A stretch of 64,000 bases of DNA from Cohaesibacter marisflavi (lineage in GTDB: Bacteria; Pseudomonadota; Alphaproteobacteria; Rhizobiales; Cohaesibacteraceae): positions 1 to 64,000 of the forward strand of contig NZ_FOVR01000016.1 of the NCBI RefSeq assembly GCF_900115225.1, given 5' to 3'. Within the stretch, counting starts at the first letter, position 1; each line of letters begins with the position of its first letter. The notes under the pieces were generated by a model, which saw nothing but the letters and a program-made list of their open reading frames with translations, was not told the DNA's origin and made no database searches. Positions 6,429-64,000 of the stretch are shown piece by piece. A program made the translations under genes and the position numbers.

Positions 6429-6431
6429 GGC

Positions 6432-6622: not shown

Positions 6623-6720
6623 AACCAACCCGGGCGGGGCGTCCTGGTAGAGGGTAGCATGGCAGATCTGTTGCTTCCGCTTGCTGAGAAGGCGAGCCAC
6701 ATTGACCGTTCCATTCCCAC

Positions 6721-48202: not shown

Positions 48203-48229
48203 CTCCCTGTTTTTTACATCTCAATATAA

Positions 48230-48242
48230 TACCTATTAGGTA
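48230..48242. promoter_or_regulatory. Candidate GntR operator between murQ and its regulator
   Basis: TACCT-ATT-AGGTA, an inverted repeat 28 bases upstream of murQ and about 230 upstream of the GntR gene. A GGTAT-N5-TTGGTC element follows at 48313. The intergenic region is otherwise AT-rich. Confidence 0.35.
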
Positions 48243-48474
48243 CCAAATGTCTATCGCAAAATATGGCGCAATTTCATGCATTGTGGGCAAAAATTTTATG
48301 CATATGCAATTTTGGTATTGTTTTGGTCTTCCTTTAATTGCATCATTGCGGTATGAAATAAATAGACCAACGCGCAACCGGGGCTGACCTCATAATCAAA
48401 GCATACGCCCGGTCTGCCAGCGCTTGGGAAGACAGATCTGGCGAGGCATTCATAGCGACATGGGGACACCCCGA

Positions 48475-49230: not shown

Positions 49231-49269
49231 GCCCCAATCGGGTTTGCGATAAAAAGAAAGCTGTTTGTC

Positions 49270-50289
49270 ATGACCAAAATGCGACAAGAAACCGAAGAGA
49301 TTCCGGTAGCCGTCGCCCGGTTGCTCGAAACCGCACCTGAAACCATCGCCCCCATCGCCAAGGCCTTCAAGACCTTTGACCCTCGGGTCGTCGTCACCAT
49401 CGCCCGTGGGTCTTCAGACCATGCTGCCTATTTCCTCAAATATGCCATCGAACTGGTGCTCGGCCTGCCCGTCGCCTCGCAAGGTCCTTCCATCGCCTCC
49501 ATCTATGGCGCTCCGATGAAAATGGGAGGAGCAGCGACGATTGCCATTTCCCAGTCCGGTGCCAGCTCCGACATTGTTGCCATGGCCGAAACAGCGCGCA
49601 AGGGAGGAGCCCTCACCGCCGCCCTGGTCAACACCCTTCCCTCGCCGCTCTCGCAGGCCTGTGAGCATGCATTAGACATCAGGGCTGGCACGGAATATGC
49701 CGTTGCAGCGACCAAATCCTACGTCAACTCGATTGTCGCCGGCCTCGCCCTCATCGCTTATTGGGCTGAAGACGACGCCTTGAAAACAGCGCTTGAGCGT
49801 CTGCCCGAACAACTCGAAAAGGCCGAAAGCCTCGACTGGTCTCATATGTTGGAACCTGTGGCAAAGGCCCAGTCGCTATATATGCTCGGGCGCGGCCCGA
49901 CTATGGCGATCGCGGCCGAAGCCGCCCTCAAATGCAAGGAAACCAGCGAGCTGCATGCTGAAGCCTATTCCTCGGCTGAAATGCTGCACGGACCGGTGTC
50001 GCTGGTGGATCGGGACTTCCCCGTCATTGCCTTTGCCGCACGCGACGCCGCTGAAAGCTCTATCGTTGACATCGTCAAGGGCGTTGTTGCCAAGAACCCG
50101 CATTGCTATATTTCATCCGACCAATCAGCCGATGCCATCCAGCTGCCCTTTGTCGCCACGGGTCATCCGCTGACCGATGCGCTGGCCCTGATCGTGCCAT
50201 TCTATCGCTTCGTGGAGCAGCTCTCTCTCAAGCGCGGACTGGACCCGGACAATCCGGCTGCGCTCAAGAAAGTGACGGTGACGCGATGA
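49270..50289 (+). CDS. SIS-domain amino-sugar phosphate deaminase/isomerase (NagB-II type)
   Basis: A 339-residue protein with two SIS domains and no glutaminase domain, so it resembles the isomerase half of GlmS. Phosphate loops are TIARGSSDHAA (about residue 42) and AISQSGASSDIVAMAE (about 94). The C-terminal ELHAEAYSSAEMLHGPVSLV and the end SLKRGLDPDNPAALKKVTVTR are typical of AgaS/NagB-II proteins. It should convert glucosamine-6-phosphate to fructose-6-phosphate and ammonia, acting after NagA. Its stop codon overlaps the nagA ATG. Confidence 0.87.
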   Translation: MTKMRQETEEIPVAVARLLETAPETIAPIAKAFKTFDPRVVVTIARGSSDHAAYFLKYAIELVLGLPVASQGPSIASIYGAPMKMGGAATIAISQSGASSDIVAMAETARKGGALTAALVNTLPSPLSQACEHALDIRAGTEYAVAATKSYVNSIVAGLALIAYWAEDDALKTALERLPEQLEKAESLDWSHMLEPVAKAQSLYMLGRGPTMAIAAEAALKCKETSELHAEAYSSAEMLHGPVSLVDRDFPVIAFAARDAAESSIVDIVKGVVAKNPHCYISSDQSADAIQLPFVATGHPLTDALALIVPFYRFVEQLSLKRGLDPDNPAALKKVTVTR

Positions 50290-51455
50290 CCAAGCCGACA
50301 GCCTTTTGCGCCGACCGCATTTTCGATGGCAATCGCTTCACGGGAAAAGCGGCATTGCTTGTTGATGGAGACACGGTTACAGGCATCGTGAAGCAGGATT
50401 CAATCCCCTCCCATTATGCGCAGCACGCCAACAAGGCACCAATGATCGTGCCGGGTTTTGTCGATTTGCAGGTCAATGGCGGCGGTGGCGCTCTGCTCAA
50501 CGAGACACCCACGCAAGAGGGCATCGCAACCATTTGTGAGGCACACGCTCGCTTTGGCACCACGGCCTTGATGCCAACGCTCATCACCGACGGGCCAGAC
50601 GTGCGCGACCGGGCGCTGGAGGCAGGCAAACAGGCAGCAAAAGCAAAGACCGCCGGTTTCCTCGGCCTTCATCTGGAAGGCCCACATCTATCCGTGCCAC
50701 GCAAAGGCGTGCATGTGGCCGATTTCATCCGCCCGATGGAAGAGCAGGATCTCTCCGTTCTCCTTGCCGCGCAAGGCACTTTCGGCAAGAGCATGATCAC
50801 CATCGCACCGGAAAATGTCACCATTGATCAGGTCAAAGCCCTAGTGGAGGCGGGTTGGCATGTCAGCCTCGGACACACCGATTGCGATGCCGAAACCGCC
50901 TTTGCCTATTTTGAGGCAGGGGCCAGCATGGCAACCCACCTCTTCAACGCCATGAGCCAGATGCGCAACCGCGAGCCCGGTCTGGTGGGCGCTGTACTGA
51001 CCACCGACAAGGCCTATTGCGGCATGATCGCCGATGGCTACCATATCGCCAACGCCAACATGCGCGTTGCCCTTCATGCCAAACAGGGGCCGGGACGCAT
51101 TTTCTTTGTTACCGACGCCATGTCACCCACGGGCACAGACGTAACGGAATTCATCCTTAGCGGCCGCCAGACCTTCCGCCGCGACGGGCGTCTCGCCCTT
51201 GCTGATGGCACGCTGGCTGGCGCCGATATCGACATGATCTCCATGGTCCGCAAAGCGCTCGCAACGCTACCACTATCACTGGAAGAAGCCCTGAAGATGG
51301 CCTCACGCTATCCGAGCGAAGCCATTGGAGCGCAGAGCAAGGGCAGGCTCAAACCCGGCTCTGATGCTGATTTCCTCCTGCTGGATGAAACGCTTTGCTT
51401 GCAATCCACATGGATCGGCGGCACCTGCGCCCATAGCAACAATAATAACAACTAG
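50286..51455 (+). CDS. nagA: N-acetylglucosamine-6-phosphate deacetylase
   Basis: A 389-residue amidohydrolase-fold enzyme that removes acetate from GlcNAc-6-phosphate. Metal and catalytic motifs are visible: PGFVDLQVNGGGG near residue 57, GLHLEGPHLS (metal Glu), HVSLGHTDCDAE (His), ATHLFNAMSQM (His) and the catalytic Asp in FFVTDAMSPTG. The C-terminal GRLKPGSDADFLLLD returns to the beta-sandwich. The ATG at 50286 overlaps the upstream stop codon (ATGA); the longer frame is inside the SIS gene. The last five residues are all Asn, encoded by a short AAC/AAT run, a harmless oddity. Confidence 0.94.
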   Translation: MTKPTAFCADRIFDGNRFTGKAALLVDGDTVTGIVKQDSIPSHYAQHANKAPMIVPGFVDLQVNGGGGALLNETPTQEGIATICEAHARFGTTALMPTLITDGPDVRDRALEAGKQAAKAKTAGFLGLHLEGPHLSVPRKGVHVADFIRPMEEQDLSVLLAAQGTFGKSMITIAPENVTIDQVKALVEAGWHVSLGHTDCDAETAFAYFEAGASMATHLFNAMSQMRNREPGLVGAVLTTDKAYCGMIADGYHIANANMRVALHAKQGPGRIFFVTDAMSPTGTDVTEFILSGRQTFRRDGRLALADGTLAGADIDMISMVRKALATLPLSLEEALKMASRYPSEAIGAQSKGRLKPGSDADFLLLDETLCLQSTWIGGTCAHSNNNNN

Positions 51456-51466
51456 GGGCCTGCTGA

Positions 51467-52375
51467 ATGATCGTATGCTTTGATATTGGCGGCTCCACAA
51501 TCAAGGGTGCTCTGGTGGACGATCCTCAAAAGATCAGCCCCGAGCCGCGCATTCCAACGCCGGGCACTGATTTCGAGGCCTTTGTCTCGGCACTACTGAG
51601 CGTCATTGATAGGGCAAAAAAGCCACCGCAGCGGGTTTCCATTTCCATTGCCGGTTTCCAGAATCCGAAAACCGGCCTTGGCATAGTTGCCAACATCCCT
51701 TGCCTGCATGGTCGCCCGATTGCCGCTGATCTGGAAAAGGCCCTTGGCCTTCCGGTGACTATAGCCAATGACGCCGACTGCTTTGCCATTGCGGAAGCCG
51801 AATTCGGTGCAGGCGCTGGCCATCGCGTGGTCTTCGGCGTTATTCTTGGCACGGGCGTTGGCGGTGGCCTCGTCATTGACGGGCAATTGATCAACAAAAA
51901 CGGCGGTTATGCTGGCGAATGGGGTCACGGACCTGTTGCCGCCACCATGGCAGGCTCACCACCAGCAACCCTACCCCGCTTCGCCTGTGGTTGCGGACTG
52001 GAAGGCTGCATCGACGCCACATGCGGCGCCCGTGGCCTTGAAAAGATCCATCGCCACATCCATGGTATCGATGCCACCTCGGAAGAAATCCTGAAAAGCT
52101 GGCACGATCGCGCACCTGCGGCCTGCCGGACCATCGATATCTATCTCGATATTCTCTCCGCTCCTCTGGCCTTGATCATCAATACCGTCGGAGCGTCGGT
52201 CGTCCCTGTGGGCGGCGGCCTTTCCAACGAGCCGAAACTGATCACCGCCATCGACCGGGCGGTCAGAAGCCGGATGCTGGTTGACCCGGAGACCCCGTTG
52301 GTTGTTCCTGCCCAAAACAAGGTGGAACCGGGCCTCATCGGTGCGGCCATTCTGGGCATGAGGCAAAGCACATAA
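51467..52375 (+). CDS. ROK-family sugar kinase (probable GlcNAc/MurNAc kinase)
   Basis: A 302-residue ROK protein without a DNA-binding domain, hence a kinase rather than a repressor. The ATP motif is MIVCFDIGGSTIKGALV. The catalytic Asp lies in IANDADCFAIAEA (about residue 103), with the Gly-rich GVILGTGVGGGLVIDG. The zinc motif GHGPV...CGCGLEGCIDATCG is complete. Within this operon it is the only visible candidate to phosphorylate imported amino sugar at C6 for MurQ and NagA. The specificity (GlcNAc, MurNAc or both) is not readable from sequence. Confidence 0.87.
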   Translation: MIVCFDIGGSTIKGALVDDPQKISPEPRIPTPGTDFEAFVSALLSVIDRAKKPPQRVSISIAGFQNPKTGLGIVANIPCLHGRPIAADLEKALGLPVTIANDADCFAIAEAEFGAGAGHRVVFGVILGTGVGGGLVIDGQLINKNGGYAGEWGHGPVAATMAGSPPATLPRFACGCGLEGCIDATCGARGLEKIHRHIHGIDATSEEILKSWHDRAPAACRTIDIYLDILSAPLALIINTVGASVVPVGGGLSNEPKLITAIDRAVRSRMLVDPETPLVVPAQNKVEPGLIGAAILGMRQST

Positions 52376-52411
52376 CCCCATTTTGCAACAGATGAACGGA
52401 GGCACTCCGCA

Positions 52412-53158
52412 ATGACTTCCAGCAAGCACGACGGCAAAGGCTCAACACTGCTGGAAATCTGCGTGGACAATAGGGACGGCCTTCAAACCGCGATCAGCTC
52501 GGGCGCCGACCGCATCGAACTTTGCTCTTCCCTTGCCTCCGGCGGACTCACTCCATCCATCGGCTTCATGGCCCTCGCGGCAAAAACAAGCCCGCTTCCA
52601 GTTCATGCTCTCATTCGCCCGCGCAGCGGTGACTTCTGTTTCAATGCGCAGGATATCGCCATCATGGCGCATGATATCGTGGCGGCGAGAAGCGCAGGCC
52701 TTGCCGGTGTTGTTATCGGGGCCTCAAAAGAGGATGGGCGACTGGACCTCGGTACGCTTGAAACCCTGATCAAGGCAGCAGGGCCATTGGACATCACCTT
52801 GCACCGCGCTTTTGACATGGTGTCGGATTTTACCGAAGCACTGGATCAGGCGGCCAGCCTTGGCATCAAGCGCATTCTCACCTCGGGCGGGGCCGCTTCG
52901 GCCCCTGAGGCAATCGATCACTTGCAAGAGTTGATCCGGCAAGGCGGCGATACCATAACCATCATGCCCGGCGGCGGTATCAACGCTGACACAGTCCAGC
53001 CATTCATCAAGATGGGCGCCAGAGAAATCCACGCCTCCTGCTCAAGCCCGCAAGGCCCGACGGGCAAGGTTGCAGACCTTGGCTTCTCTCTGCCCTCCGA
53101 GCGGCAAACCGATCCTGACAAGATCAGAGCGCTAAAAACCGGTCTCCTTGCTGTATAA
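52412..53158 (+). CDS. cutC: CutC family TIM-barrel protein
   Basis: A 248-residue TIM-barrel protein of the CutC family, historically linked to copper homeostasis but biochemically undefined. Conserved stretches are LLEICVDNRDGLQTAISSGADRIELCSSLASGGLTPS, VHALIRPRSGDFCFN, GVVIGASKEDGRLD, ITLHRAFDM, RILTSGGAASAPE and IMPGGGINADTV. GGAGG precedes the ATG 36 bases after the kinase gene, so it is the last gene of the amino-sugar operon. The location and barrel fold suggest an enzymatic role in carbohydrate metabolism here rather than metal handling. That is an inference. Confidence 0.9.
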   Translation: MTSSKHDGKGSTLLEICVDNRDGLQTAISSGADRIELCSSLASGGLTPSIGFMALAAKTSPLPVHALIRPRSGDFCFNAQDIAIMAHDIVAARSAGLAGVVIGASKEDGRLDLGTLETLIKAAGPLDITLHRAFDMVSDFTEALDQAASLGIKRILTSGGAASAPEAIDHLQELIRQGGDTITIMPGGGINADTVQPFIKMGAREIHASCSSPQGPTGKVADLGFSLPSERQTDPDKIRALKTGLLAV

Positions 53159-53221: not shown

Positions 53222-54691
53222 TCAGCCCATGAAGGAGGTGATGAGCTTGTCCCACTGGGGCAGATCATCTACCAGCTGATCCCAGAAAGCCTGATCCCGA
53301 CGGCTGTCAAAATCTTTCAGCTCAACGCCCTGCTGCTCGACCCAGGTGTAGTAACCCAGATTGAAGATGCGCTCGCGATCAATGCGGGTAAGCTCTGACA
53401 CATGATCCACCGAAGCACCGATGATCTGTGCGCCGAAGGCCTGCGCTGCAACGGTCTTGTCGAAGCGATTGCCGAAATATTTCTGCAAGGCTTTCGGCTG
53501 CTCGGTGCTATACATATCAGCCCCGTCGGTCGCGATTGTCATGATGACATCATCGGCCCCCAGCTTCTGATATTTGGCCAGCTTGATGGCGCCAAGCACG
53601 TTGGCAATGGAAGACAGTCCCAACGCGGACAGTTGTTCGATCAGCTCCGGCTCAACGCCACGATAGTCTTTCAGATAATCCTGCCCGTCCGGACGGTTGA
53701 ACACCAGATTGAGCATGTCCGACCCGGCTTCGGAAAGACCGATGACATAGTCGGAATTCATCACATTATGGATGAGCGGCACATGCTTGTCGCCGATGCC
53801 CTGAATATTATGGTCACCATAGCCATTATAAAGCAGGGTTGGGCATTCAAGCGCTTCGACCACGGCGATGTCAGCACCATAATGCTGCTTGAGGTGATCC
53901 CCGGCGGCCAGCGTCCCCGAAGAGCCGGAGGCTGAAACGAAACCAGCCATATTGAGTGTGCCGTCCCCGTTGAGAGCATCGAAAATACGCCCCAGAGCCG
54001 CACCGGTTACCGCGCGATGCGCTGCATAGTTGGCAAATTCGGCAAACTGGTTGAGGATCACATTGTCAGGATCCTGACTGAGCTGGTTGCAGGCGTCATA
54101 GATCTCCTTGACGTTGCTCTCGCAGCCCGGTGTGCGGATGATGTCGTCATTGCTGAGCGTCCAGCTTTCCAGCCAGTTGAAGCGCTCCTGACTCATCCCC
54201 TCGGGCAGAACAGCCACCCCGTGGCATTCCAGAATACGCGAAATGGCGACCCCGCCGCGGCAATAGTTGCCCGTGGAAGGCCATACGGCACGCTGGGAAT
54301 AGGGGTCGAAATTGCCCGACACCAATCGCTGCACGAGGCACGCATAGGCGGGCAACACCTTATGTGCCTTGATCATGGGGAAGCGGTTGCCAAGGGCGAT
54401 GACGATCTTGGCATCAACGCCTGTCAGTTCCTTGGGCAGCACAATGTGATCAGGCACATCGACCAGTCCCTTGCGCTCGGCATCATTGTGCCAATGAACG
54501 CGGAACAGGTTGCGTGAATCCGCTGCATCGGGATCAACGCTCTTCAGATCCGCCGCCATATCTCCCAGATGCGCAACCGGGTCTATCAGCTCGGCAAACA
54601 GTGGCAGGCGAATATCGTATCGGCGAAAAGACTCAGCAACCTTCTTGAGGGCTTTCTCGTCGGCGATTTCAGGTTTGAACACAAATGTCAT
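53222..54691 (-). CDS. Fold-type-II PLP-dependent enzyme, function unassigned
   Basis: A 489-residue enzyme of the tryptophan-synthase-beta/cysteine-synthase superfamily. The probable Schiff-base Lys is in FPMIKAHKVLPAYACLV (about residue 119-124). The substrate loop is PSTGNYCRGGVAISRILECHG, and the phosphate-binding loop is SASGSSGTLAAGDHLK near 260. It is about 100 residues longer than ordinary members, with an N-terminal extension of about 100 residues and a C-terminal tail. It is the last gene of the TRAP/carbamoylase/DAP-lyase operon, with its start overlapping the upstream stop codon (ATGA). It may deaminate or eliminate from an amino acid released by the carbamoylases. No closer assignment is justified. 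Confidence 0.82.
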   Translation of the reverse strand: MTFVFKPEIADEKALKKVAESFRRYDIRLPLFAELIDPVAHLGDMAADLKSVDPDAADSRNLFRVHWHNDAERKGLVDVPDHIVLPKELTGVDAKIVIALGNRFPMIKAHKVLPAYACLVQRLVSGNFDPYSQRAVWPSTGNYCRGGVAISRILECHGVAVLPEGMSQERFNWLESWTLSNDDIIRTPGCESNVKEIYDACNQLSQDPDNVILNQFAEFANYAAHRAVTGAALGRIFDALNGDGTLNMAGFVSASGSSGTLAAGDHLKQHYGADIAVVEALECPTLLYNGYGDHNIQGIGDKHVPLIHNVMNSDYVIGLSEAGSDMLNLVFNRPDGQDYLKDYRGVEPELIEQLSALGLSSIANVLGAIKLAKYQKLGADDVIMTIATDGADMYSTEQPKALQKYFGNRFDKTVAAQAFGAQIIGASVDHVSELTRIDRERIFNLGYYTWVEQQGVELKDFDSRRDQAFWDQLVDDLPQWDKLITSFMG

Positions 54692-55611
54692 GATTTTTTC
54701 GGTTCGGTAATCGGGGTGTAGTTTTCGGGTTCACGGTAACGCTGGAAATTGAACACGTTCTTGCGGATCTCGTCGCAGCGATCCAGATCAGCTTCAAAGA
54801 AGACGAGCTCGTCTTCCAGCGTCTTGGCCTGCGCCACGATCTGGCCGGTCGGATCGATGATGCAGGAGCCACCGATCAAATCGCAGCCTTCTTCCTTGCC
54901 AGCTTTGGCCACGCCGACGATCCACATGCCGTTCTGATAGGCCCCCGCCTGCATGACGAGTTCATTATGGAAGTCCTGCAGATGATCATGTTCAGGCGCT
55001 TGCGGATAATGCACCGGGGTGTTGTAGCCGATCATCACCAGCTCCGCATCGCGCAGGCCCAGCACGCGATAGGTTTCTGGCCAGCGACGGTCATTGCAGA
55101 TGCACATGCCCATCTTGCCACCAAAGGCATCAAAGGTCTGGAAGCCCAGATCGCCGCTTTCAAAATAACGCCGTTCCAGATGCTGGAAAGGACGCCAATC
55201 TTCATATTCACTATGACCGGGCAGATGGACCTTGCGATATTTCCCGACAATCTCACCGGTCTTGTCGACGATGATGGTGGTGTTGAAATGGCGCGTGGTG
55301 TCGCCTTCCTTGACCAGTTCTGCATAGCCGAGATAGAAGCCCATCTGGTATTTCTTGGCAGCATCAAACAGCGACTGGGTTTCAGCGCTTGGCATCTCCG
55401 TTTCGAAGAAGGAATCGATATCGGCCTGATCTTCAAAATACCAGCGCGGGAAGAAGGTGGTCAGCGCCAGCTCCGGGAAAGCGATCAGCTCAACGCCCAG
55501 CGCATGCGCCTCTTCCATCAGCTTGAGGCAACGGGCAACAACTTCCGTACGCGTTTCTTCACGCGCGATAGGCCCAAGCTGGGCCGCAGCAATTTTCAAT
55601 GGACGGGACAT
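54688..55611 (-). CDS. N-carbamoyl-D-amino-acid hydrolase (nitrilase superfamily)
   Basis: A 307-residue carbon-nitrogen hydrolase that follows the Agrobacterium D-carbamoylase over its full length (304 residues). The catalytic triad is in place: E47 in FPELALTTFFPRW, the Lys in GKYRKVHLPGHSEYE and the Cys in GMCICNDRRWPET. Other shared segments are RPFQHLERRYFESGDLGFQ, MQAGAYQNG and EEGCDLIGGSCII. It would remove the carbamoyl group of an N-carbamoyl-D-amino acid to give the D-amino acid, CO2 and ammonia. In this operon it is paired with an M20 carbamoylase and a DAP ammonia-lyase. No hydantoinase gene is adjacent. Confidence 0.9.
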   Translation of the reverse strand: MSRPLKIAAAQLGPIAREETRTEVVARCLKLMEEAHALGVELIAFPELALTTFFPRWYFEDQADIDSFFETEMPSAETQSLFDAAKKYQMGFYLGYAELVKEGDTTRHFNTTIIVDKTGEIVGKYRKVHLPGHSEYEDWRPFQHLERRYFESGDLGFQTFDAFGGKMGMCICNDRRWPETYRVLGLRDAELVMIGYNTPVHYPQAPEHDHLQDFHNELVMQAGAYQNGMWIVGVAKAGKEEGCDLIGGSCIIDPTGQIVAQAKTLEDELVFFEADLDRCDEIRKNVFNFQRYREPENYTPITEPKKS

Positions 55612-55621
55612 AGCCTTATCC

Positions 55622-56869
55622 TTATTTTTCTTCAGCTTTAGTCAATGCAGCTTGCAGCAGCACGTTGGCGCCTGCCTGCAGCTCTTCGGGGGCGGTGTAT
55701 TCTTCAATATTGTGGCTGATGCCACCCTTTGAGGGCACGAAGACCATTGCGGTTGGACAGTTGGGTGCAAACATCTGAGCATCATGACCGGCGCCAGAAG
55801 GCATCCGGCGCACGGCATAGCCCTGCTCTTTGGCCGTACCAGCAATTAGATCAACCATGGAGCTATCAAACATCACCGGCTCGAAGCGAGCGAGTTTGCG
55901 CGCGATATAGCTCACGCCTTCAGCCTTGCAGATGGCTTCGATTTCAGCGGCCAGCATGCTTTCGGCTTGCTGCAGCTTGACTTCATCGATATTGCGCAGA
56001 TCCACTGTCATGCGAGCCTTGCGCGCGATCACATTGACCAGATTGGGGTCAAGCTCATTGACACCAACAGTCGCGACCTGGCTATCGCCAATTGCGCCAG
56101 CCACCTTGCGGGCGGCAACAGCAACTGCCGCGGCAGCAAACCCGGCGTCGTGGCGCAAACGCATCGGCGTTGTGCCGGCATGGTTGGATTCACCCTCGAT
56201 GACATATTCGGTCCAAGAAATACCCTGAACACCGGTGACAGCCCCGATGAGATCGCCTTCCTCTTCCAGAACTGGCCCCTGCTCCACATGGATTTCAAAG
56301 AAGCAATAAGGATCGATATGGCCCGGATCGGTTTCACCGGCATAGCCAATGCGCGCCAGTTCCTCGCCAACAACAAAGCCCTCCGCATCCTTGATAGCCA
56401 AGGCTTCATCGAGCGGCAAAGAGCCGCGATCCACCGCGCTGCCCATCATATCAGGCGCAAAGCGCGAGCCTTCCTCGTTGGTGAAGGCAGCAACCACAAT
56501 CGGACGCAGCGGCACATAGCCACTATCCTTGAGCACAGAAACCACTTCCAGCCCGGCCAGCACACCAAGGTTGCCGTCATAAAGACCACCGGTGGCCACC
56601 GTATCGATATGGGAACCAATCATGACCGGCGGCAGATCTTCACGACCGGGCAAAACGCCCTTGAGGTTCCCGACCTTGTCGACGGTAACTGTAAGCCCCA
56701 GCTCTTTCATCCAGCCGACAACCCGGTCGCGGCCGAGTTTGTCCGTGTCGCTGAGCGCCAACCGACACACGCCGCCGCCCTCAAGTGCGCCATCTTGCCC
56801 CAAAGCCATAAGGCGCCCGAGCAAGCGGTCGATATCGATCCGCAGATTGCTGAAAGTCGGGTGTGTCAT
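55622..56869 (-). CDS. M20-family N-carbamoyl-amino-acid hydrolase (hydantoinase/carbamoylase family)
   Basis: A 415-residue binuclear metalloamidase of the L-carbamoylase/allantoate amidohydrolase group. Metal-site motifs are GSHIDTV (His), YDGNLGVLAGLE (bridging Asp), FTNEEGSRFAP (catalytic and metal Glu), FEIHVEQGPVLEEE (His) and the C-terminal GGISHNIEEYT (His). The dimerisation lid includes GESNHAGTTPM and AGHDAQMF. Substrate could be an N-carbamoyl-L-amino acid or a ureido acid. Its start overlaps the end of the DAP-lyase gene by four bases. Confidence 0.92.
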   Translation of the reverse strand: MTHPTFSNLRIDIDRLLGRLMALGQDGALEGGGVCRLALSDTDKLGRDRVVGWMKELGLTVTVDKVGNLKGVLPGREDLPPVMIGSHIDTVATGGLYDGNLGVLAGLEVVSVLKDSGYVPLRPIVVAAFTNEEGSRFAPDMMGSAVDRGSLPLDEALAIKDAEGFVVGEELARIGYAGETDPGHIDPYCFFEIHVEQGPVLEEEGDLIGAVTGVQGISWTEYVIEGESNHAGTTPMRLRHDAGFAAAAVAVAARKVAGAIGDSQVATVGVNELDPNLVNVIARKARMTVDLRNIDEVKLQQAESMLAAEIEAICKAEGVSYIARKLARFEPVMFDSSMVDLIAGTAKEQGYAVRRMPSGAGHDAQMFAPNCPTAMVFVPSKGGISHNIEEYTAPEELQAGANVLLQAALTKAEEK

Positions 56870-58062
56870 TGTTCAAGTACCTCACTTGCTGATTTGCCAA
56901 CAATTGTCTTGTAGGCTTCCGGATCCGTGTCCCCTTCGCTGTTGACTACGAAGATGCGGCTATCAGGTCCGAGCCCCATTTGTTTGCGTAACGCATCGTC
57001 CTGCGCGGCGGCAACAAGGCCAGCCAGACCGGAGATGCCCGTTTCACCAGCCACAACGGGGCGATCATCACCACCGCGTTCGGCCAGATAACGCATCATC
57101 ACCGGCACGGCGCCATCATTGAGCGTCACCATGAAATCGGCGCCGGTCTTGAGCACTGGCCAGGCAATGAGCGATACCTCACCGCAGGAAAGTCCGGCCA
57201 TGGCCGAGTCGATATCACCGGTTACGGGCACCGGCTTACCTGCAACAAGACTCTCATACCAACAGGCGCATTGTTCCGGCTCCACCAGCGTGGTCACCGG
57301 ACGCTTGTCGCCATAAGCCTGCCAGAAACGGGCCGCGCTGGCCGATGCCATGCCGCCAACACCAGCCTGCAGAAAAATATGCGTGACGGGTGGCTCATCC
57401 TTGAGCTGTTCCAGCGCCTCATCAACCATCATCATATAGCCTTGAGTTACATCACGCGGCGCCGTCACCGTCTCGCCATCCGATGTATCGGGAATAACGA
57501 ACCAGCCTTGTTCCTTGGCCGTCACGCCAGCCAGACGCACGGCATCATCAAACGAGCCATCCACTTCGCGGATCTCCGCCCCATAGGCGGCAATGGCATC
57601 CTTGCGCTGCTGGGTGACCGATGAGCAGACAAAAATCACACAACGACAACCAAACATCTGCGCCCCCCAAGCCACCGAGCGGCCGTGATTGCCATCTGTC
57701 GCGGCGGTAACCGTCAGCCCTGCAACCCGCGCCTTCATGTCTGGAGAAGTAAGATCGGGAGCCACCTCGCCCGCTTCTTCGGTCAGATGGCGGCTCAAGG
57801 CACGACTGACGGCAAAGGCACCTCCCAAAGGCTTGAAGCTGCCCAACCCGAAGCGGACGGATTCATCCTTGAAATAGATTTTGCCAACATTGAGCTCTGA
57901 GGCCAGATCGGACAGTTCGCGGATTGGCGACGGCGAATAGCCCGGCCAGCAGCCAATCGTGCGGCGTGCGATATCCATGCCATCCTTTTCGAAAGGAAGA
58001 GAAGGAAGCGTCCGGGACGCAAGAGGATTCCGCGCCGCTCGTTCAAGAGAAATCTTCATCAT
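56866..58062 (-). CDS. Diaminopropionate ammonia-lyase
   Basis: A 398-residue fold-type-II PLP enzyme of the DAPAL family (E. coli YgeX is 398). It converts 2,3-diaminopropionate to pyruvate and two ammonia. Motifs match: CWPGYSPSPIRELSDLA, the Schiff-base Lys in FKDESVRFGLGSFKPLGGAFA, TAATDGNHGRSVAWGAQ whose Asp is needed for the D-isomer in characterised enzymes, and the phosphate loop LQAGVGGMASA. The C-terminal VNSEGDTDPEAYK is a family signature. The gene follows the TRAP genes and precedes both carbamoylases on the minus strand, so the imported compound probably yields DAP. Confidence 0.92.
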   Translation of the reverse strand: MMKISLERAARNPLASRTLPSLPFEKDGMDIARRTIGCWPGYSPSPIRELSDLASELNVGKIYFKDESVRFGLGSFKPLGGAFAVSRALSRHLTEEAGEVAPDLTSPDMKARVAGLTVTAATDGNHGRSVAWGAQMFGCRCVIFVCSSVTQQRKDAIAAYGAEIREVDGSFDDAVRLAGVTAKEQGWFVIPDTSDGETVTAPRDVTQGYMMMVDEALEQLKDEPPVTHIFLQAGVGGMASASAARFWQAYGDKRPVTTLVEPEQCACWYESLVAGKPVPVTGDIDSAMAGLSCGEVSLIAWPVLKTGADFMVTLNDGAVPVMMRYLAERGGDDRPVVAGETGISGLAGLVAAAQDDALRKQMGLGPDSRIFVVNSEGDTDPEAYKTIVGKSASEVLEQ

Positions 58063-58167
58063 TGTCTTTTCTTATTCTGGTTTGATCGGCTCTTTTGATC
58101 CTCGCCGTGCCATTGATGCGCATCATCCAAGGCAAGGAACAGAAAAACCGCTCACAAGGACGGAAAG

Positions 58168-58193
58168 GGCGGCGAACATGAATGCCCGCCGCC
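58168..58193 (-). terminator. Intercistronic hairpin after dctP of the DAP operon
   Basis: GGCGGCG / CGCCGCC, 7 bp with a 12-base loop, 18 bases past the dctP stop codon and before the DAP-lyase gene. On the minus strand CTTTCC follows. It is likely a partial terminator or mRNA stabiliser. Confidence 0.5.
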
Positions 58194-58210
58194 AAGGTGT
58201 AATCGTGCCA

Positions 58211-59251
58211 TTATTTATATTTGTCGATATCGGCCATCAGGGCATTGAGCATGTCCGTGCCTTCGGCACCGAATTTCTCTTCAATCAACTTGCGAACAGC
58301 TGGCTGCGCAATGGCTGCGAACTTCTCGGCTTCTGCCGGGCTAACCGCATTGATTTCCATTTTCTCAGCCAATTTCGGCAGACCCTTGTCAGATGCTTCG
58401 ATGATACGGGAAATACCGCGACCGGCATTGGTGGCCACTTCAGACGCCCAATCAACAATAGCTTTATGCTCAGGCTTGAGGCCCTCATAGAACTCGCCAT
58501 TCATGAACCAGACATATGGGGTGATGACATGGTTGGTGATGGAGAGATATTTTTGCACTTCGTCGAATTTGGCAAAGGCGATGATGGGGATCGGGTTCAT
58601 TTCGCCATCGGCAACACCGGTCTGGAGCGCAGTGTAAACCTCGGCCCAAGGCAGAGGCGTTGCCTGTGCACCAAGCGAATTGACCATGGCTTGATGTGTC
58701 GGCAGGGTCATGGTGCGGATGCGCAAGCCATCCATGTCTTCCACGGTCTTGATCGGACGCTTGGAGTTGGTGAAGGCAAAGAAGCCACCACTATCCAGAA
58801 TCGCAAGCGTATGTAGACCGGTTTTGGCATCCATATCGGCTGCGAATTTCTTGCCGAAATCGCTCTCCAGCGACATCACCTTGTCGGAAACATAGATATT
58901 GGGGAAGGCGAACGGAATATCGAACACACCAACCAGCGGATAATGCTGGGCAACACCACCAGCAGACGAAATGCTGGATTCCACGATGCCATCACGCACC
59001 TGCTGGATCACTTCGTTATCCTTGCCAAGCTGGCCATTGGGGAAGAGTTTCACTTCGATTTCGCCGTTTGACGCGGTTTCAACCAACGACTTGAAGACAG
59101 CCGTCATCGCACCAGAATGGCTTTCGGTCGGGTCTGCCGGGTTCAGATGCCCTATGCGAATCGTCACATCAGCGGCCAAGGCCGTTCCAGCCAAAACAGT
59201 TGCTGCGATGGTTCCCAACACCACAGACTTAACGGAATTCATGAGTTTCAT
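58211..59251 (-). CDS. TRAP solute-binding protein (DctP) of the DAP operon
   Basis: A 346-residue periplasmic receptor with a Sec signal peptide (residues 1-27, ending in AGTALA). The mature part begins DVTIRIGHLNPADPTESHSGAMTAVFK. DctP signatures include EVKLFPNGQLGKDNEVIQQVRDG, the ligand-carboxylate Arg in DGLRIRTMTLPTHQ and LPWAEVYTALQTGVADGEMNP. GGAG precedes the ATG at 59251. It completes a dctQMP set and should deliver an acidic compound, probably a carbamoyl or ureido amino acid, to the enzymes encoded next. Confidence 0.94.
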   Translation of the reverse strand: MKLMNSVKSVVLGTIAATVLAGTALAADVTIRIGHLNPADPTESHSGAMTAVFKSLVETASNGEIEVKLFPNGQLGKDNEVIQQVRDGIVESSISSAGGVAQHYPLVGVFDIPFAFPNIYVSDKVMSLESDFGKKFAADMDAKTGLHTLAILDSGGFFAFTNSKRPIKTVEDMDGLRIRTMTLPTHQAMVNSLGAQATPLPWAEVYTALQTGVADGEMNPIPIIAFAKFDEVQKYLSITNHVITPYVWFMNGEFYEGLKPEHKAIVDWASEVATNAGRGISRIIEASDKGLPKLAEKMEINAVSPAEAEKFAAIAQPAVRKLIEEKFGAEGTDMLNALMADIDKYK

Positions 59252-59287
59252 GTTATTGCTCCATTTGAATTGTATCAGTGCTCTGGA

Positions 59288-60568
59288 TTACAGCCCCAAT
59301 AGCCTTGGCACGAACAGGGTCATGTCCTCCCAAAATGCGACCAACATCAGGATCGCAATCTCTGCCAGGAGAAAAGGCCAAAGGGATTTGGTGATATTTT
59401 CTATTTTTTCTTTGGTAACCGATGCGAGCACAAACAGGCACGCACCGACTGGAGGCGTCATGAGTGAGATATTCAGAGCCAAAATGATCATGATCCCTGC
59501 ATGAACCGGGTTCATCCCGATGCTCTGAGTAAGAGGCACCAAAACCGGCGCCAGGATAATGAGTGTTGCGTTGATGTCCATGAACAGGCCGATGAACAGC
59601 AGCAACAGAAGGATCATGCCGACAATCACCTGCGGATTATCGCTGACCGAAAGGAAGAAAGTGGCGATTGCCTGCGGAATCTGGTTGAAGGTGAGCCACC
59701 ACCCCAGAATGGAGGCCGACGCGATGATCAGAAAGATAATCCCTGTGATACGGGTCGTTCTGACGATCATCTCGTAAAGATCTTTAAAGGTAAGAGCCCG
59801 ATAGATCACCCCGCCAACGAACAAGGCATAGGCAACCGCAATGGAGGCTGCCTCGGTCGGCGTGGCGATGCCTCCCAGAATGGAGCCAAGAATGAAAACC
59901 GGCAGCACCAGAGCCAGAATGCTCTCGCGGAAGGCGCTGAAGATCGCCAGAAGGCTGGGGCGCTTCTTCGACTTGGGCAGATTGAGCTTCTCGCCCATGG
60001 CCGCAATCACCGCCATGCAGATCAGGCAAATGAGCAGTCCCGGCAAAATGCCTGCCGCAAACAGCCCTGCGATGGAAACGCCCATTATCGAGCCATAGAT
60101 CACCGCAAGCGTCGAAGGCGGAATCGTCGGGCCAATGATGGACCCTGCCGCCGTAACCGCACAGGCAAAGGGTTTGGAATAGCCCTGCTTGACCATGGCA
60201 GGCACCAGCGTATTGCCAAAGGCGGCAGCGTCAGCCGTGGCAGCGCCCGTCAAACCGGCAAACATCACCGAGGCCACCATATTGGAATGAGCCATACCGC
60301 CGCGCATCCAGCCCACCAGCGCATCAGCGAACTTGACCAGATTGTTGGTAATGCCCGAACGGTTCATGATCTCACCGGCCAGAATAAAGAAAGGCATGGC
60401 CAGAAACGGAAACAGATCCAGCCCGGCGAACATCCGGTCTGGCGCCATGGAGAGGAACTTGCCGCCCCCCATATCCATGATGCCAACCATACCGGCCACA
60501 CCCAGCACAAAGCCGACCGGCATGCCAATCGCCAACAGCCCGAAGAAGGTAACAGCAACCCAAATCAT
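59288..60568 (-). CDS. TRAP transporter large permease (DctM) of the DAP operon
   Basis: A 426-residue inner-membrane permease of standard DctM length, with about twelve helices. It contains MAHSNMVASVMFAGLTGAATADAAAFGNTLVPAM, the family-type CAVTAAGSIIGPTIPPSTLAVIYGSIMGVSIAGLFAAGILPG, and LNISLMTPPVGACLFVLASV. It begins 2 bases after the dctQ stop codon. Confidence 0.95.
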   Translation of the reverse strand: MIWVAVTFFGLLAIGMPVGFVLGVAGMVGIMDMGGGKFLSMAPDRMFAGLDLFPFLAMPFFILAGEIMNRSGITNNLVKFADALVGWMRGGMAHSNMVASVMFAGLTGAATADAAAFGNTLVPAMVKQGYSKPFACAVTAAGSIIGPTIPPSTLAVIYGSIMGVSIAGLFAAGILPGLLICLICMAVIAAMGEKLNLPKSKKRPSLLAIFSAFRESILALVLPVFILGSILGGIATPTEAASIAVAYALFVGGVIYRALTFKDLYEMIVRTTRITGIIFLIIASASILGWWLTFNQIPQAIATFFLSVSDNPQVIVGMILLLLLFIGLFMDINATLIILAPVLVPLTQSIGMNPVHAGIMIILALNISLMTPPVGACLFVLASVTKEKIENITKSLWPFLLAEIAILMLVAFWEDMTLFVPRLLGL

Positions 60569-60570
60569 GC

Positions 60571-61089
60571 TTAAATCTCCACTCGGTCGGCAGCGGCGAC
60601 ACCGTCACCGGCAAAAAAGTCATGGACAGCCACCAGAGCCAACTGGCAACAGGCAAAAACAGCAGCAATCGGCACGCCCATGAAGGGCCAGCCCTTCGGG
60701 ATTTGCGCAATCATCGTGTATCGACCGAAACCACGCTCGACAAAGCCGATGCCATAAAAGAAAATCAGCGCGAAGAAAGCGAAGGCAATGACATCAAACA
60801 GCACCGCAAGCCATTTCCGCATGGAAGGCGGGAAGCGCTCGAAAAAGACCAGCACCCCGATATGCTCACGGTGCGCCACACCGCAGGAAACCGCCAAAAG
60901 CGCCATCCAGATCATCAGATAGCGCGCCAGCTCCTCGGTAAAGGTCCAATCCAGCGGAAGCACATAGCGAACAAGCACACCCAGCCACACATCGAGCACC
61001 AGCAAAACCATCAAGGCAACACAAAGGCGCTCAACAAACCAGTTAATACGCCTACTCATCAGAGATGCTCGTTTAGCGAGAAGGTCCAT
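60571..61089 (-). CDS. TRAP transporter small permease (DctQ) of the DAP operon
   Basis: A 172-residue four-helix protein. Helices include LCVALMVLLVLDVWLGVLVRYVL and LAVLFDVIAFAFFALIFFYGIGF. The family-type W-TEELARYLMIWMALLAVSCGVAHREHIGV segment is near residue 48. GGAG lies about nine bases before the ATG. It is the first gene of the leftward operon, divergent from the first RpiR regulator. Confidence 0.93.
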   Translation of the reverse strand: MDLLAKRASLMSRRINWFVERLCVALMVLLVLDVWLGVLVRYVLPLDWTFTEELARYLMIWMALLAVSCGVAHREHIGVLVFFERFPPSMRKWLAVLFDVIAFAFFALIFFYGIGFVERGFGRYTMIAQIPKGWPFMGVPIAAVFACCQLALVAVHDFFAGDGVAAADRVEI

Positions 61090-61157
61090 GCATCCACTCC
61101 AGATAGCCTGCCAACAGACCGAGACTGAAACAGATGTAACAGAAAGTCAATATTGAT

Positions 61158-61173
61158 TGATACTCAAGTTTCA
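61158..61173. promoter_or_regulatory. Imperfect palindrome between dctQ and rpiR1
   Basis: TGATACTCAAGTTTCA is symmetric at 12 of 16 positions (TGA-ACT....AGT-TCA). It lies between the divergent starts and resembles the TGAAA/TTTCA sites near the second RpiR gene. Binding by an RpiR regulator is a guess from position. Confidence 0.3.
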
Positions 61174-61209
61174 AATATTGTAGGCAGAAGCAAAAAAGCC
61201 GAGGCAAAA

Positions 61210-62058
61210 ATGAACGACAGCAGAGCCAAATCGATCGAAGTCCGCATTCACGCGGAATATGATCAACTCCCCGAATCCGAGCGCAAACTCGCAGACGTCA
61301 TCCTCGACTCTCCGGGTGACCTTAGCTCCTATACGGCAACAGAGTTGACCTCCCTTGCTGGCGTCTCGAAAGCCGCAGGAACCCGCCTGTTTCGTCGCCT
61401 CGGCTTTGCCAATTTCGAAGAAGCCAAACTGCTCGCCCGCGACCGCACCCATTGGGGGTCGCCGCTCTATCTGGAGCGCAAGAGTCGGAAGAATGTCATT
61501 CCGCTTTCCGACTACCTGAAGGAGGAGGTCAGCGTTCTGGAGAAAAGCCTCATGCGCCTCAACCCGGAAGACATTGATGCGGTCTGTGAAAAAATCCTCG
61601 CAGCGCGGCGCATTTATCTGCTCGGCTACAGAAACAGCAACATGCTCGCCAACTATCTGCGATGGCAGCTGTTGCAATTCCGTGGCGACGTGCAGCTGAT
61701 GCCCACGGGCGGGGAAACGGTTGGCGAATATATCGGTGATTTCCTGCCCGATGATCTGCTCATCGTATTTGCCCTGCGACGCCGACCGGTCCGCTTGGAA
61801 GCCATCATGAAGGCCAGCAAGGAAAAGCAGATCCCCATCCTGCTGTTCATCGACCCCACCGCACGCGGCCAACCCGGATTGGCCGACTGGACATTCACAA
61901 CCCATGTGGAAACCAGCACCACATTCGACAGCCTGTCAGCGGCCCTCTCGGTTGCCCGTTACATTGCAATATCTTCGCTCAACCGGGCAGGAACGCGCGG
62001 ACGGGCTCATCTGGAGCGCATCGAACGCGAGCATGAAGCATTGGGAGAATTCGAATAG
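61210..62058 (+). CDS. RpiR-family regulator (MurR/RpiR), copy 1
   Basis: A 282-residue regulator with an N-terminal HTH_6 (IEVRIHAEYDQLPESERKLADVILDSPGDLSSYTATELTSLAGVSKAAGTRLFRRLGFANFEEAK). A SIS domain covers about 115-255 (ARRIYLLGYRNSNMLANYLRWQL, LLIVFALRRRPVRLEAIMKA). The ATG at 61210 has GAGG five bases upstream; the longer frame begins at a TTG without an RBS. It is divergent from the TRAP/DAP operon and probably its regulator. The SIS residues that hold sugar phosphates are poorly conserved, in keeping with a non-sugar effector. Confidence 0.9.
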   Translation: MNDSRAKSIEVRIHAEYDQLPESERKLADVILDSPGDLSSYTATELTSLAGVSKAAGTRLFRRLGFANFEEAKLLARDRTHWGSPLYLERKSRKNVIPLSDYLKEEVSVLEKSLMRLNPEDIDAVCEKILAARRIYLLGYRNSNMLANYLRWQLLQFRGDVQLMPTGGETVGEYIGDFLPDDLLIVFALRRRPVRLEAIMKASKEKQIPILLFIDPTARGQPGLADWTFTTHVETSTTFDSLSAALSVARYIAISSLNRAGTRGRAHLERIEREHEALGEFE

Positions 62059-62215: not shown

Positions 62216-63106
62216 ATGAGCGAGCAAGATAAGCCAAAAGCAATTGACGTCAGAATTTCGGAAATCTACGACCAGCTAACCAGCTCGGAGCGTCGATTGG
62301 CTGACGTTGTAATCGAGTCGCAAAGCAATCTGGCAAGCTTCACCGCCGGCGAATTGGCCGATCGGGCACGCATATCCAAGGCCACCGCAGCGCGATTCTT
62401 CAAACGCCTTGGCTACGCCAATTACAACGAAGCCCGCGTTATGAATCGCCAAGCGGAGGACTGGGGTTCCCCTCTCTATGAGCTCACGGGCATCGGCACC
62501 AAACGCCTCTCTCAGGGCGACTTCGGCCTGCATATTGCGCAGGATTTGCAAAACCTTACCCGAACTGCCGAGATGCTTGACACAGACGCCCTGGCACAAG
62601 CCATCAGCATGCTGACCAACGCCAAACGCATCTGGTCTCTTGGCTTCCGCAACTCCATGGCTTTGGCCACTTATGCCCGGGCTTTGCTTATCAACATCAA
62701 ACCCGACGTGCGCCTCATTCCCAGTGCGGGCATGTCCTTTGGTGAAGAACTGGCTGGCATGAACAAGGCGGAGGACACCTTCCTCATTTTCGGTTTTCGC
62801 CGCCGTCCGGCGCAACTGCGCGACGTGATGGAAGCGATTCATGATGCAGGAGCACCAAGCATTCTGATCACCGACATGACCGCCGGTCGCACCTCGCAAC
62901 TGGCCACCCTCACCTTGCGCTGTCACTGCCGCGGGCACACCATGTTTGACAGCTACGCCACCCCCATGAGCCTGATCAATTATATCTGCTCAGGTGTCAG
63001 CCAATCCCTTGGTGAAGAGTCTGTTGAGCGCCTCACTGAAATTGAAGCCCTGCATAGCAAATTGGATCAGCTAGGCGCGCCGCTGATCGGAAAAGACAGT
63101 GCATAA
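62216..63106 (+). CDS. RpiR-family regulator (MurR/RpiR), copy 2
   Basis: A 296-residue paralogue of the preceding regulator. The HTH_6 domain is at residues 7-85 (DVRISEIYDQLTSSERRLADVVIESQSNLASFTAGELADRARISKATAARFFKRLGYANYNEAR). The SIS domain follows (AKRIWSLGFRNSMALATYARALL, FLIFGFRRRPAQLRDVMEAI). The two proteins share the unusual FxRRRP motif, suggesting an origin by duplication. It sits between a perfect palindrome and an ABC binding-protein gene with a related repeat, so it likely regulates that transporter. Confidence 0.9.
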   Translation: MSEQDKPKAIDVRISEIYDQLTSSERRLADVVIESQSNLASFTAGELADRARISKATAARFFKRLGYANYNEARVMNRQAEDWGSPLYELTGIGTKRLSQGDFGLHIAQDLQNLTRTAEMLDTDALAQAISMLTNAKRIWSLGFRNSMALATYARALLINIKPDVRLIPSAGMSFGEELAGMNKAEDTFLIFGFRRRPAQLRDVMEAIHDAGAPSILITDMTAGRTSQLATLTLRCHCRGHTMFDSYATPMSLINYICSGVSQSLGEESVERLTEIEALHSKLDQLGAPLIGKDSA

Positions 63107-63145: not shown

Positions 63146-63257
63146 ATTGATCTTTTTATGAAAAAGTATTTTAATCAGAGCGATCGCAAACAACGACGAT
63201 CGACCTCACCAGAGCAAGCAACGCTCCCTCATGGAGCGACTTGAAAGGGAACATTTT

Positions 63258-64000
63258 ATGGCTTTTCACATCAATCGCCGCGATCTGTTGAAGACCGTGG
63301 CAGCGGGCGCTGCATTGGGTGCGCTGTCTCCAATCAATCGCGCCATGGCTGCAACCGAAGTTTCATGGATGACCTGGGAAAATCTGGCCAAGCCGGAATA
63401 TCTCCAGGCCTTCCTCGACGCCAACGCAGGCATCGACATTGCAAAAACCTTCATTGGCACCGACGATGAACAATTCGCCAAGCTGCGCGCTGGCGGTGCA
63501 GATTCCGTTGACCTGATCACTCCAGGCCTCGACAAGGTCGAATATTACGTTGAATCCGACCTGCTGCAGCCGATCGATTTCGACAAGGTCACCAACGGCA
63601 AGCTTCTTTATGACGCCTTCAAATCTTCTCCGCTGGGCAAGAAAGATGGCAAAACCTACGGCATTCCATTCTACTGGGGCATCAACCCGGTGGTTTACCG
63701 CGCCGACCTGATGGATGAAGAACCCGATTGGTCCGTCTTCTTTGAAGGCGACAAATACAAAGGCAAGCTGGCCATGCGCGACTATGCGCTGGAAGGCATC
63801 ATGATTGCCGCCATGTATCTAGGCATTCCGCGCGAAGAAATGTTCGTCATGGACGACAAGCAGCTGGCTGAAATCAAGAAAGCTCTGATGGCGCAGAAGA
63901 AACTGCTTCGCACCTACTGGAATTCCATTTCCGATCTGACCAACCTGTTTGCTTCCGGCGAAGTCGTCTGCGCTTTCTCCTGGGTACCGCCTTACTATGA
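63258..64000 (+). CDS. Polyamine-type ABC solute-binding protein, Tat signal (3' end outside window)
   Basis: The first 247 residues of a spermidine/putrescine-type (PotD/PotF-like) periplasmic binding protein. The N-terminus MAFHINRRDLLKTVAAGAAL has a twin-arginine motif and hydrophobic stretch, with cleavage likely after AMA. The mature part includes VSWMTWENLAKPEYLQAFLDANAG, ADSVDLITPGLDKVEYYVESDLLQPID, YGIPFYWGINPVVYRADL and KLAMRDYALEGIMIAAMYLG, all in the PotD-type order. AAAGGGA precedes the ATG. Transport partners presumably follow beyond the window. Confidence 0.9.
   Translation, partial: MAFHINRRDLLKTVAAGAALGALSPINRAMAATEVSWMTWENLAKPEYLQAFLDANAGIDIAKTFIGTDDEQFAKLRAGGADSVDLITPGLDKVEYYVESDLLQPIDFDKVTNGKLLYDAFKSSPLGKKDGKTYGIPFYWGINPVVYRADLMDEEPDWSVFFEGDKYKGKLAMRDYALEGIMIAAMYLGIPREEMFVMDDKQLAEIKKALMAQKKLLRTYWNSISDLTNLFASGEVVCAFSWVPPYY

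Follow-up and report, generated by a model that had tools for sequence, protein, structure and literature searches.

A candidate cluster for scavenging ureido derivatives of 2,3-diaminopropionate in Cohaesibacter marisflavi

The window, as we call the whole stretch of DNA analyzed here, spans 64,000 nucleotides of Cohaesibacter marisflavi (contig NZ_FOVR01000016.1, positions 1–64,000, forward strand). It contains an operon of seven minus-strand genes, read from 61089 down to 53222, that encodes the DctQ, DctM, and DctP subunits of a tripartite ATP-independent periplasmic (TRAP) transporter, a relative of diaminopropionate ammonia-lyase (DAPAL, written DAPAL* for the form with an altered active-site segment), a carbamoylase of the M20 family (M20), an N-carbamoyl-D-amino-acid hydrolase (DCase), and a second pyridoxal phosphate (PLP) enzyme, PLP2. 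We propose, with a probability of about 0.56, that the operon and its divergent neighbors serve to scavenge ureido derivatives of 2,3-diaminopropionate (DAP), as a module equivalent to the last steps of reductive uric-acid breakdown uncoupled from the purine-specific first steps. The content and order of the genes, their conservation and linkage, and the motif patterns of their products are established directly. Families were assigned with Pfam and NCBIfam profiles at their own cut-offs, relatives of solved structure were ranked by bit score, and gene maps of other loci were drawn with tblastn. The genes and features are as follows.

60571..61089, minus strand: DctQ, TRAP small permease (PF04290 95.8 bits, cut-off 28.3)
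59288..60568, minus strand: DctM, TRAP large permease (PF06808 378.5 bits; TIGR00786 407.9 over 268)
58211..59251, minus strand: DctP, TRAP solute-binding protein (PF03480 250.7 bits; TIGR00787 199.8 over 175)
58063..58210, minus strand: DctP-DAPAL spacer of 148 nt; G+C-rich inverted repeat close to DctP, identified by eye
56866..58062, minus strand: DAPAL*, diaminopropionate ammonia-lyase relative with altered active-site segment (NF006058 432.8 over 276)
55622..56869, minus strand: M20 carbamoylase (TIGR01879 403.6 over 204; NF006769 452.5 over 452; family motifs kept)
54688..55611, minus strand: DCase, nitrilase-fold N-carbamoyl-D-amino-acid hydrolase (CN_hydrolase 193.9; 1fo6 425 bits; motifs)
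53222..54691, minus strand: PLP2, CysK-fold PLP enzyme of an unnamed family (PALP 33.2 bits, just under the cut-off of 35)
61153..62058, plus strand: RpiR/MurR-type regulator 1, RpiR1 (HTH_6 and SIS above cut-off)
62216..63106, plus strand: RpiR/MurR-type regulator 2, RpiR2 (HTH_6 and SIS above cut-off)
63231..64000 (on the contig to 64340), plus strand: PotD-like ABC solute-binding protein, truncated at the window end

Open reading frames and family scores confirm the seven genes that a preliminary description of this DNA had placed on one strand with overlaps. Four-nucleotide overlaps occur at the DAPAL/M20 and DCase/PLP2 junctions, and the remaining genes are separated by 2 nt (DctQ/DctM), 36 nt (DctM/DctP), 148 nt (DctP/DAPAL), and 10 nt (M20/DCase). 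The three TRAP subunits are each above their Pfam cut-off, the N-terminus of DctP resembles a signal peptide when judged by eye, and the nearest solved relatives of this protein are 4p47 (173 bits) and 4n8g (169 bits). The inverted repeat in the DctP-DAPAL spacer is possibly an element of expression control; it is absent from the terminator-like sites of our scan, which itself gave about as many sites as shuffled sequence (9 vs 9.9).

The limits given earlier, 53222–61089, hold for the seven genes and fall short of the cluster, which runs on past the window end in a divergent arm comprising RpiR1, RpiR2, PotD, PotA, PotB, PotC, and a dihydropyrimidinase. The last of these, at contig positions 67122–68537, passes NF009941 (700.5 over 647) and, as a HyuA-type hydantoinase, TIGR02033 (540.7 over 393). 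Identity to the corresponding set of Rhizobium sp. ACO-34A is 80% for PotD, 73% for PotA, 81% for PotB, 75% for PotC, and 82% for the dihydropyrimidinase.

Conservation and linkage of the enzyme genes

Eight of 18 genomes of the genus carry a DAPAL at least 71% identical to that of the window, and two others (G002, G005) have a relative at 40–42% only. The order DAPAL-M20-DCase-PLP2 is kept in all eight, with RpiR1 adjoining the operon in each. TRAP is missing in G001 only, a genome (contamination 8%) that has PotABCD and dihydropyrimidinase; G004 and G009 have TRAP, with no PotABCD or dihydropyrimidinase within ~19 kb beyond RpiR1 and no RpiR2 found beside the operon, and the other five have both. 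A close dihydropyrimidinase (≥91%) occurs in exactly six of the 18 genomes, those with the PotABCD arm. In the family set PLP2 is present in 9/20 genomes, each of them a member of the genus. Pairwise dN/dS is ~0.02–0.15 for six of the seven operon genes (all but DctQ; no value was obtained for pairs in which dS was saturated), and among G001, G011, G013, and G017 the values for PLP2 (0.033–0.044) are tighter than those for DAPAL (0.065–0.106). The operon is found in full in a Kiloniellaceae contig (L013) as well, at 54–81% protein identity. Because gene order is kept within the genus, dN/dS is low, and the arrangement recurs in L013, the operon appears to be more than a chance assembly.

A natural deletion derivative of the operon in G010 (L132, 7704–10664) retains M20 and PLP2 in full, and of DAPAL only the final 39 residues and of DCase a tail of ~60 nt. 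No second DAPAL was found in this genome, and no TRAP match was found in the 17-kb locus, TRAP and DCase not having been searched elsewhere in that genome. The derivative hints at M20 and PLP2 as a sufficient pair; the deletion may be young.

The importers differ in the company they keep. Dihydropyrimidinase is present at all eight DAPAL-M20-DCase loci with close PotABCD (G000, G001, G011, G012, G013, G017, L090, L200) and at none of four that have TRAP without close PotABCD (G004, G009, L013, L141). L013 and L141 are the weaker members of the four, the first covering only ~2.5 kb beyond its regulator and the second having a more distant Pot-type importer (35–47%; L185) ~5.5 kb beyond its own. 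Neither TRAP nor close PotABCD was found at L091, L138, and L170, the last on a short contig. From this small and partly related sample we infer that PotABCD imports a ring compound and TRAP an opened acid. The TRAP importer and the hydrolases thus make up one half of the cluster; as PotABCD and dihydropyrimidinase belong to it as well, cyclic ureides are probably substrates too.

The best solved relatives of DCase are N-carbamoyl-D-amino-acid amidohydrolases, and the protein keeps the FPELA, KYRK, and CNDRRWPE motifs, whose E, K, and C we take to be the catalytic residues. Those of M20 are amidases of the hydantoinase/carbamoylase family. In a sample of 241 genomes of the class, DAPAL was found in 44 (50 places), DCase in 46 (67 places), and both in 28, a co-occurrence with p = 9e-14 when kinship is ignored. 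The two genes lie within 5 kb of each other in 10 of 57 same-genome pairs, against 0.13 expected by position alone. Linked pairs are scattered over the DAPAL tree (five changes for the DCase-only group, four for the trio group), as expected of repeated association. This recurrent placement of DCase beside DAPAL is new, and DCase would take the place that YgeW/UacY has in the reductive uric-acid pathway.

DAPAL* and PLP2 as candidate terminal lyases

The terminal step had been assigned to DAPAL, with no role for PLP2. In favor of that assignment, DAPAL* passes NF006058, its best solved relatives are two diaminopropionate ammonia-lyases (236 and 234 bits), and it keeps K77, D120, and D189 of YgeX, which we take to be the Schiff-base lysine and two catalytic aspartates; the changed active-site segment and the possible action of PLP2 qualify it. 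In an alignment of 64 DAPAL rows, partial and repeated ones included, all nine readable rows from operons with PLP2 and M20/DCase (seven from the genus) have Pro after K77 and TSDG or TADS after D189, with no GY. DCase-linked rows without PLP2 have GY in 11/11 and Ala after the lysine in 10/10 covered. Loss of GY alone is not diagnostic, since it is also absent from five rows that belong to neither group (L151, L153, L161, L165, L171); among the rows, Pro after K77 was seen in PLP2 operons only. DAPALs near PLP2 without DCase (L020, L021, L026, L028) retain GY. The DAPALs of PLP2 operons form one clade of nine rows (SH-aLRT 99) in a quick tree from which the trait columns were not removed.

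PLP2 has 489 residues vs ~320 in CysK, scores 73 bits against the CysK model (cut-off 351, not passed), and bears the motifs STGNYCRGG, HNIQGIGDKH, and YYTWVEQQ. Foldseek with its AlphaFold model (pLDDT 93.6) returned cysteine synthases, beta-cyanoalanine synthase, and CBS (8b9y, E 8.8e-17, TM 0.79 by target). Relatives number at least 588 among 592 stretches of a genome collection, and PLP2 is thus a widespread, unnamed family, a point that is new. Within the class sample it occurs in 9/241 genomes, and it is absent from all nine genomes, the window's own not counted, that have a DCase-DAPAL pair.

We examined the best 80 PLP2 loci, a sample biased to close kin. At the thresholds used, ten of these have DAPAL, seven DCase, and seven an M20 of the window type. 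A match of SsnA, YgfK, YgeW, or YqeA type was found at ten (L019, L032, L038, L039, L044, L045, L048, L053, L076, L081), none of which has a DAPAL/YgeX match in the DNA covered, four being contigs shorter than 13 kb (L032, L038, L044, L081); at L076 the purine marker lies 8–10 kb off on the opposite strand. The same markers were found at 0/40 DAPAL-centered loci of the class, which served as control. The Armatimonadota locus L039 combines the end of a xanthine dehydrogenase (XDH) gene with SsnA (38%), an F420-type reductase, YgeY, HyuA, PLP2, PALPc1, YgeW, and YqeA, and has no YgeX within 21 kb. PALPc1 is a neighbor of PLP2 at 29/80 loci and has no meaningful BLASTP similarity to DAPAL* or PLP2.

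The terminal lyase thus occurs in three states: canonical DAPAL without PLP2, DAPAL* with PLP2, and PLP2 without DAPAL. Most simply read, these states would mean that PLP2 can take the terminal step, and we regard it as at least as likely a DAP lyase as DAPAL*. Its active-site motifs are nearly constant across purine and other contexts, which favors one reaction fed by varied precursors. A bolder proposal can be advanced only tentatively, with the odds somewhat against it: PLP2 would be a new lyase family for DAP (or ureidoalanine), derived from CysK, that replaces YgeX in the reductive-purine clusters of several phyla and stands here beside an altered DAPAL, together with a D-carbamoylase evolved for the 2-ureido group of D-2,3-diureidopropionate.

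Two other settings of PLP2 are recorded as observations in their own right. In an unexplained conserved cluster of alphaproteobacterial loci (L033, L035, L040, L049, L054, L066, L079, and others), two CoA-transferase-like genes and an F420-type reductase come after PLP2, often beside F420 biosynthesis genes; these neighbors were named from the reading of representative translations. At L046, L052, L073, L077, and L199, from marine-type Alphaproteobacteria, PLP2 occurs with OCD-like, M20, M24, proline-racemase-like, and often EutB-like genes.

Relation to reductive uric-acid breakdown

The study of Li et al. 2025 (PMC12507026) describes conversion of uric acid to yanthine via XdhD, ring reduction and opening via YgfK/UacX and SsnA, and formation of 2,3-diureidopropionate by HyuA, of albizziin by YgeW or UacY, of DAP by YgeY, and of pyruvate by YgeX. 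It also reports an F420-type reductase in Chloroflexota clusters and marks YgeX by PF00291, so that PLP2 and PALPc1 could have counted as YgeX. The ygeW-ygeY-hyuA-ssnA neighborhood is noted by Barba et al. 2013 (PMC4016543). According to a commentary by Percudani 2025 (PMC12990295), the order in which the ureido groups are lost is disputed between two studies, and the configuration of the intermediates is likewise open, R having been proposed and not proven. Both compounds that the preliminary description had named as likely substrates, 2,3-diureidopropionate and albizziin(e), are intermediates in Li et al. 2025. The outline that the description gave, of two carbamoylases, differing in position or stereochemistry, that lead to a DAP lyase, is supported as a probable scheme by these intermediates and by carbamoylase relatives in reductive-purine operons.

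The best independent support for the link comes from L048, an Acidimicrobiales contig of a metagenome-assembled genome that carries on one strand, in order, M20 (59%), the N-terminal part of YgfK (TIGR03315 457 bits, under the cut-off of 835), DCase (55%), XDH, an SsnA-like gene, PLP2 (55%), and PALPc1. Its XDH was named by 75% identity to the copy in L053, and a relative in L032 passes TIGR03311. At L072, M20 (58%), DCase (59%), and XDH stand in a row 6 kb from PLP2, and L053 and L019 combine a window-type M20 (56% and 60%) with XDH, an SsnA-like gene, and PLP2. For the SsnA-like proteins of L019, L032, and L081 the best model is SsnA, at scores below its cut-off.

Every substrate and reaction in the proposed route is inferred, as is the direction of flow. 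PotABCD would import a cyclic ureide (ureidomethylhydantoin, 5-ureidodihydrouracil, or similar) that dihydropyrimidinase could open, and TRAP would import the ring-opened acid (2,3-diureidopropionate, albizziin, or similar). In the D form, DCase is predicted to strip the alpha (2-)ureido group; M20 would remove the 3-ureido group, and a PLP lyase, DAPAL* and/or PLP2, would then split DAP into pyruvate and two ammonia. The RpiR regulators presumably sense the substrate or an intermediate. We favor this scavenging route because the enzyme set matches the published tail of HyuA, YgeW/UacY, YgeY, and YgeX, because relatives of M20 and DCase stand in the purine loci L048 and L072 and of M20 in L053 and L019, and because of the DCase-DAPAL linkage, the pairing of dihydropyrimidinase with PotABCD, the three lyase states, and the kept catalytic motifs.

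Several observations weigh against it. DAPAL* falls short of the YgeX equivalog model (TIGR03528 318 vs a cut-off of 532) and has FKP and TSDGETV in place of the FKA and, after D189, the GY-bearing segment found in most relatives. No window-type M20 lies within 5 kb in six of the ten DCase-DAPAL pairs (G020, G058, G080, G102, G136, G188), 57 of the 67 DCases in the class sample have no DAPAL within that distance, and the complete enzyme set with PLP2 is found in three lineages only (the genus, L010, L013), the contig of L010 beginning at DAPAL and so not covering the importer region. PLP2 itself has a CoA-transferase-like gene within 5 kb at 15 of the best 80 loci, mostly with an F420-type reductase and often with F420 biosynthesis genes; others lie in M24, M20, proline-racemase, or EutBC-like contexts with no purine gene, and on two plasmids, of Bosea and Rhizobium (L095, L096), it is near TauE/SafE-type sulfite exporter genes, which hint at a different leaving group. 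In a second sample of eight PLP2 loci, from other genomes of the class, none had a match of SsnA, YgfK, YgeW, DCase, M20, or DAPAL type; the CoA-transferase set was seen in four, a EutBC-like set in one, and nothing recognized in three. The genus seems to lack the upper pathway, with SsnA in 0/18 genomes at 1e-20 in a search that had no control. An AlphaFold model of DctP from seven rows, from which its ligand might have been read, reached a pLDDT of 40.6 and was dropped, and, to our knowledge, no environmental pool of either ureidomethylhydantoin or diureidopropionate has been described.

These points bear on three other explanations. The strongest, which we nevertheless consider unlikely, is general scavenging of hydantoins and N-carbamoyl amino acids, in which a hydantoinase and D- and L-carbamoylases release ordinary D- and L-amino acids, some of which the PLP enzymes deaminate. 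Both carbamoylases do come from broad families, and the many DCases remote from any DAPAL (57/67) fit this well; it leaves unaccounted for the repeated and specific DCase-DAPAL linkage and the presence of window-type M20 and DCase inside the reductive-purine clusters of L048 and L072. Less probable again is a different ureido- or amide-bearing compound, such as a plant or algal non-protein amino acid, from which PLP2 or DAPAL* would eliminate a leaving group other than ammonia. The changed DAPAL* segment, the CysK-like fold of PLP2, the TauE/SafE genes near it on two plasmids, and the want of purine contexts in the second sample (0/8) would all suit such a beta-substituted alanine, whereas the active-site motifs of PLP2 hardly vary between purine and other contexts and two carbamoylases best fit a di-ureido compound.

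The remaining explanation, that the cluster is the tail of the host's own reductive uric-acid pathway with its upper genes unlinked elsewhere in the genome, shares its tail chemistry with E. coli ygeW-ygeX-ygeY-hyuA and is very improbable given that SsnA was found in 0/18 genus genomes at 1e-20, that YgfK and selenium-dependent XDH exceed their cut-offs in 0/18 each, and that the urate-oxidase family PF06181 is found in 18/18. In three genus genomes, own included, the SsnA model gave at most 54 bits (cut-off 455), with 1/14 controls passing; for YgfK 1/14 controls likewise passed, UacX and F420-type reductases not having been searched in the genus, and for selenium-dependent XDH no control passed either, XdhD itself not having been searched. 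YgeW had no tblastn match in the operon's own loci, where UacY was not searched. On the strength of the SsnA, YgfK, XDH, and PF06181 results, the genus probably breaks uric acid down oxidatively, and the cluster probably begins from imported ureides. The link to the E. coli ygeX purine/uric-acid cluster drawn in the preliminary description therefore holds for the tail chemistry and probably not for an E. coli-like pathway, with no SsnA found and no YgfK above cut-off in the 18 genomes.

Two further lines were set aside. A candidate for the upper pathway in the own genome (G000:C36:23535-27598), a Mo-hydroxylase that scores 434 bits with the selenium-dependent XDH model (cut-off 830) and precedes a YgfK-C-like ORF, was rejected because similar matches occur in the operon-free G003 and G016 and are unlisted for G013 and G017, which have the operon. 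A survey of SsnA across the phylum gave 44/397 genomes at 1e-50 with one above cut-off; most of these are probably other amidohydrolases, and terminal lyases were not counted from it.

As the tail of the pathway is published, the cluster is not wholly new; no TRAP-fed pathway of this kind was found described in the open-licence literature. D-carbamoylases are industrial enzymes for D-amino acids, and the scavenging route, if true, gives them a natural role. It predicts a D intermediate that loses its 2-ureido group to DCase, and names for assay an unstudied PLP family, PLP2, whose relatives in that genome collection number at least 588. The cluster thereby offers purifiable enzymes for the open question of order and stereochemistry (PMC12990295).

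Elsewhere in the window, the neighbors of the operon at ~47291–53158 look like a set for the catabolism of amino sugars (MurQ-like, GntR-type regulator, SIS protein, NagA-like, kinase, CutC), named from their translations except for CutC, which alone was assigned by Pfam. A cobalamin riboswitch at 6421–6627 (plus strand; 142.5 bits vs a gathering score of 31.5) is the sole Rfam match at the gathering threshold.

Comparison with known systems

With the reductive uric acid (yanthine) cluster of E. coli and C. difficile (PMC12507026), the window's cluster shares a hydantoinase-type enzyme, two ureido removals, and a final DAP lyase. It differs in that neither SsnA nor YgfK was found in the genus, in having DCase for YgeW/UacY and an M20 of the hydantoinase/carbamoylase subfamily for YgeY, and in adding PLP2 and the TRAP and ABC importers.

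Individual enzymes show the same mixture of likeness and departure. DCase resembles the N-carbamoyl-D-amino-acid amidohydrolases 1fo6 and 1erz over its full length and shares FPELA, KYRK, and CNDRRWPE with them; it differs in its proposed natural substrate and in its linkage to DAPAL in part of the class. DAPAL* shares with YgeX the residues K77, D120, and D189 and the NF006058 score, and departs from it in FKP, TSDGETV, and the missed equivalog cut-off. PLP2 shares its core fold with CysK/OASS, beta-cyanoalanine synthase, and CBS, and lies far under all CysK cut-offs.

Close counterparts of the cluster are on the Rhizobium plasmids CP021374 and NZ_CP048425, which have no TRAP or PLP2 alongside and a canonical DAPAL segment (read in CP021374 only). 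In CP021374, Mo-hydroxylase genes adjoin DCase, and the regulator, annotated as hypothetical, resembles RpiR proteins. Both plasmids carry the same genes in the same divergent layout, dihydropyrimidinase-PotCBAD-RpiR facing DAPAL-M20-DCase, and the dihydropyrimidinase of CP021374 is 82% identical to that of the window's cluster.

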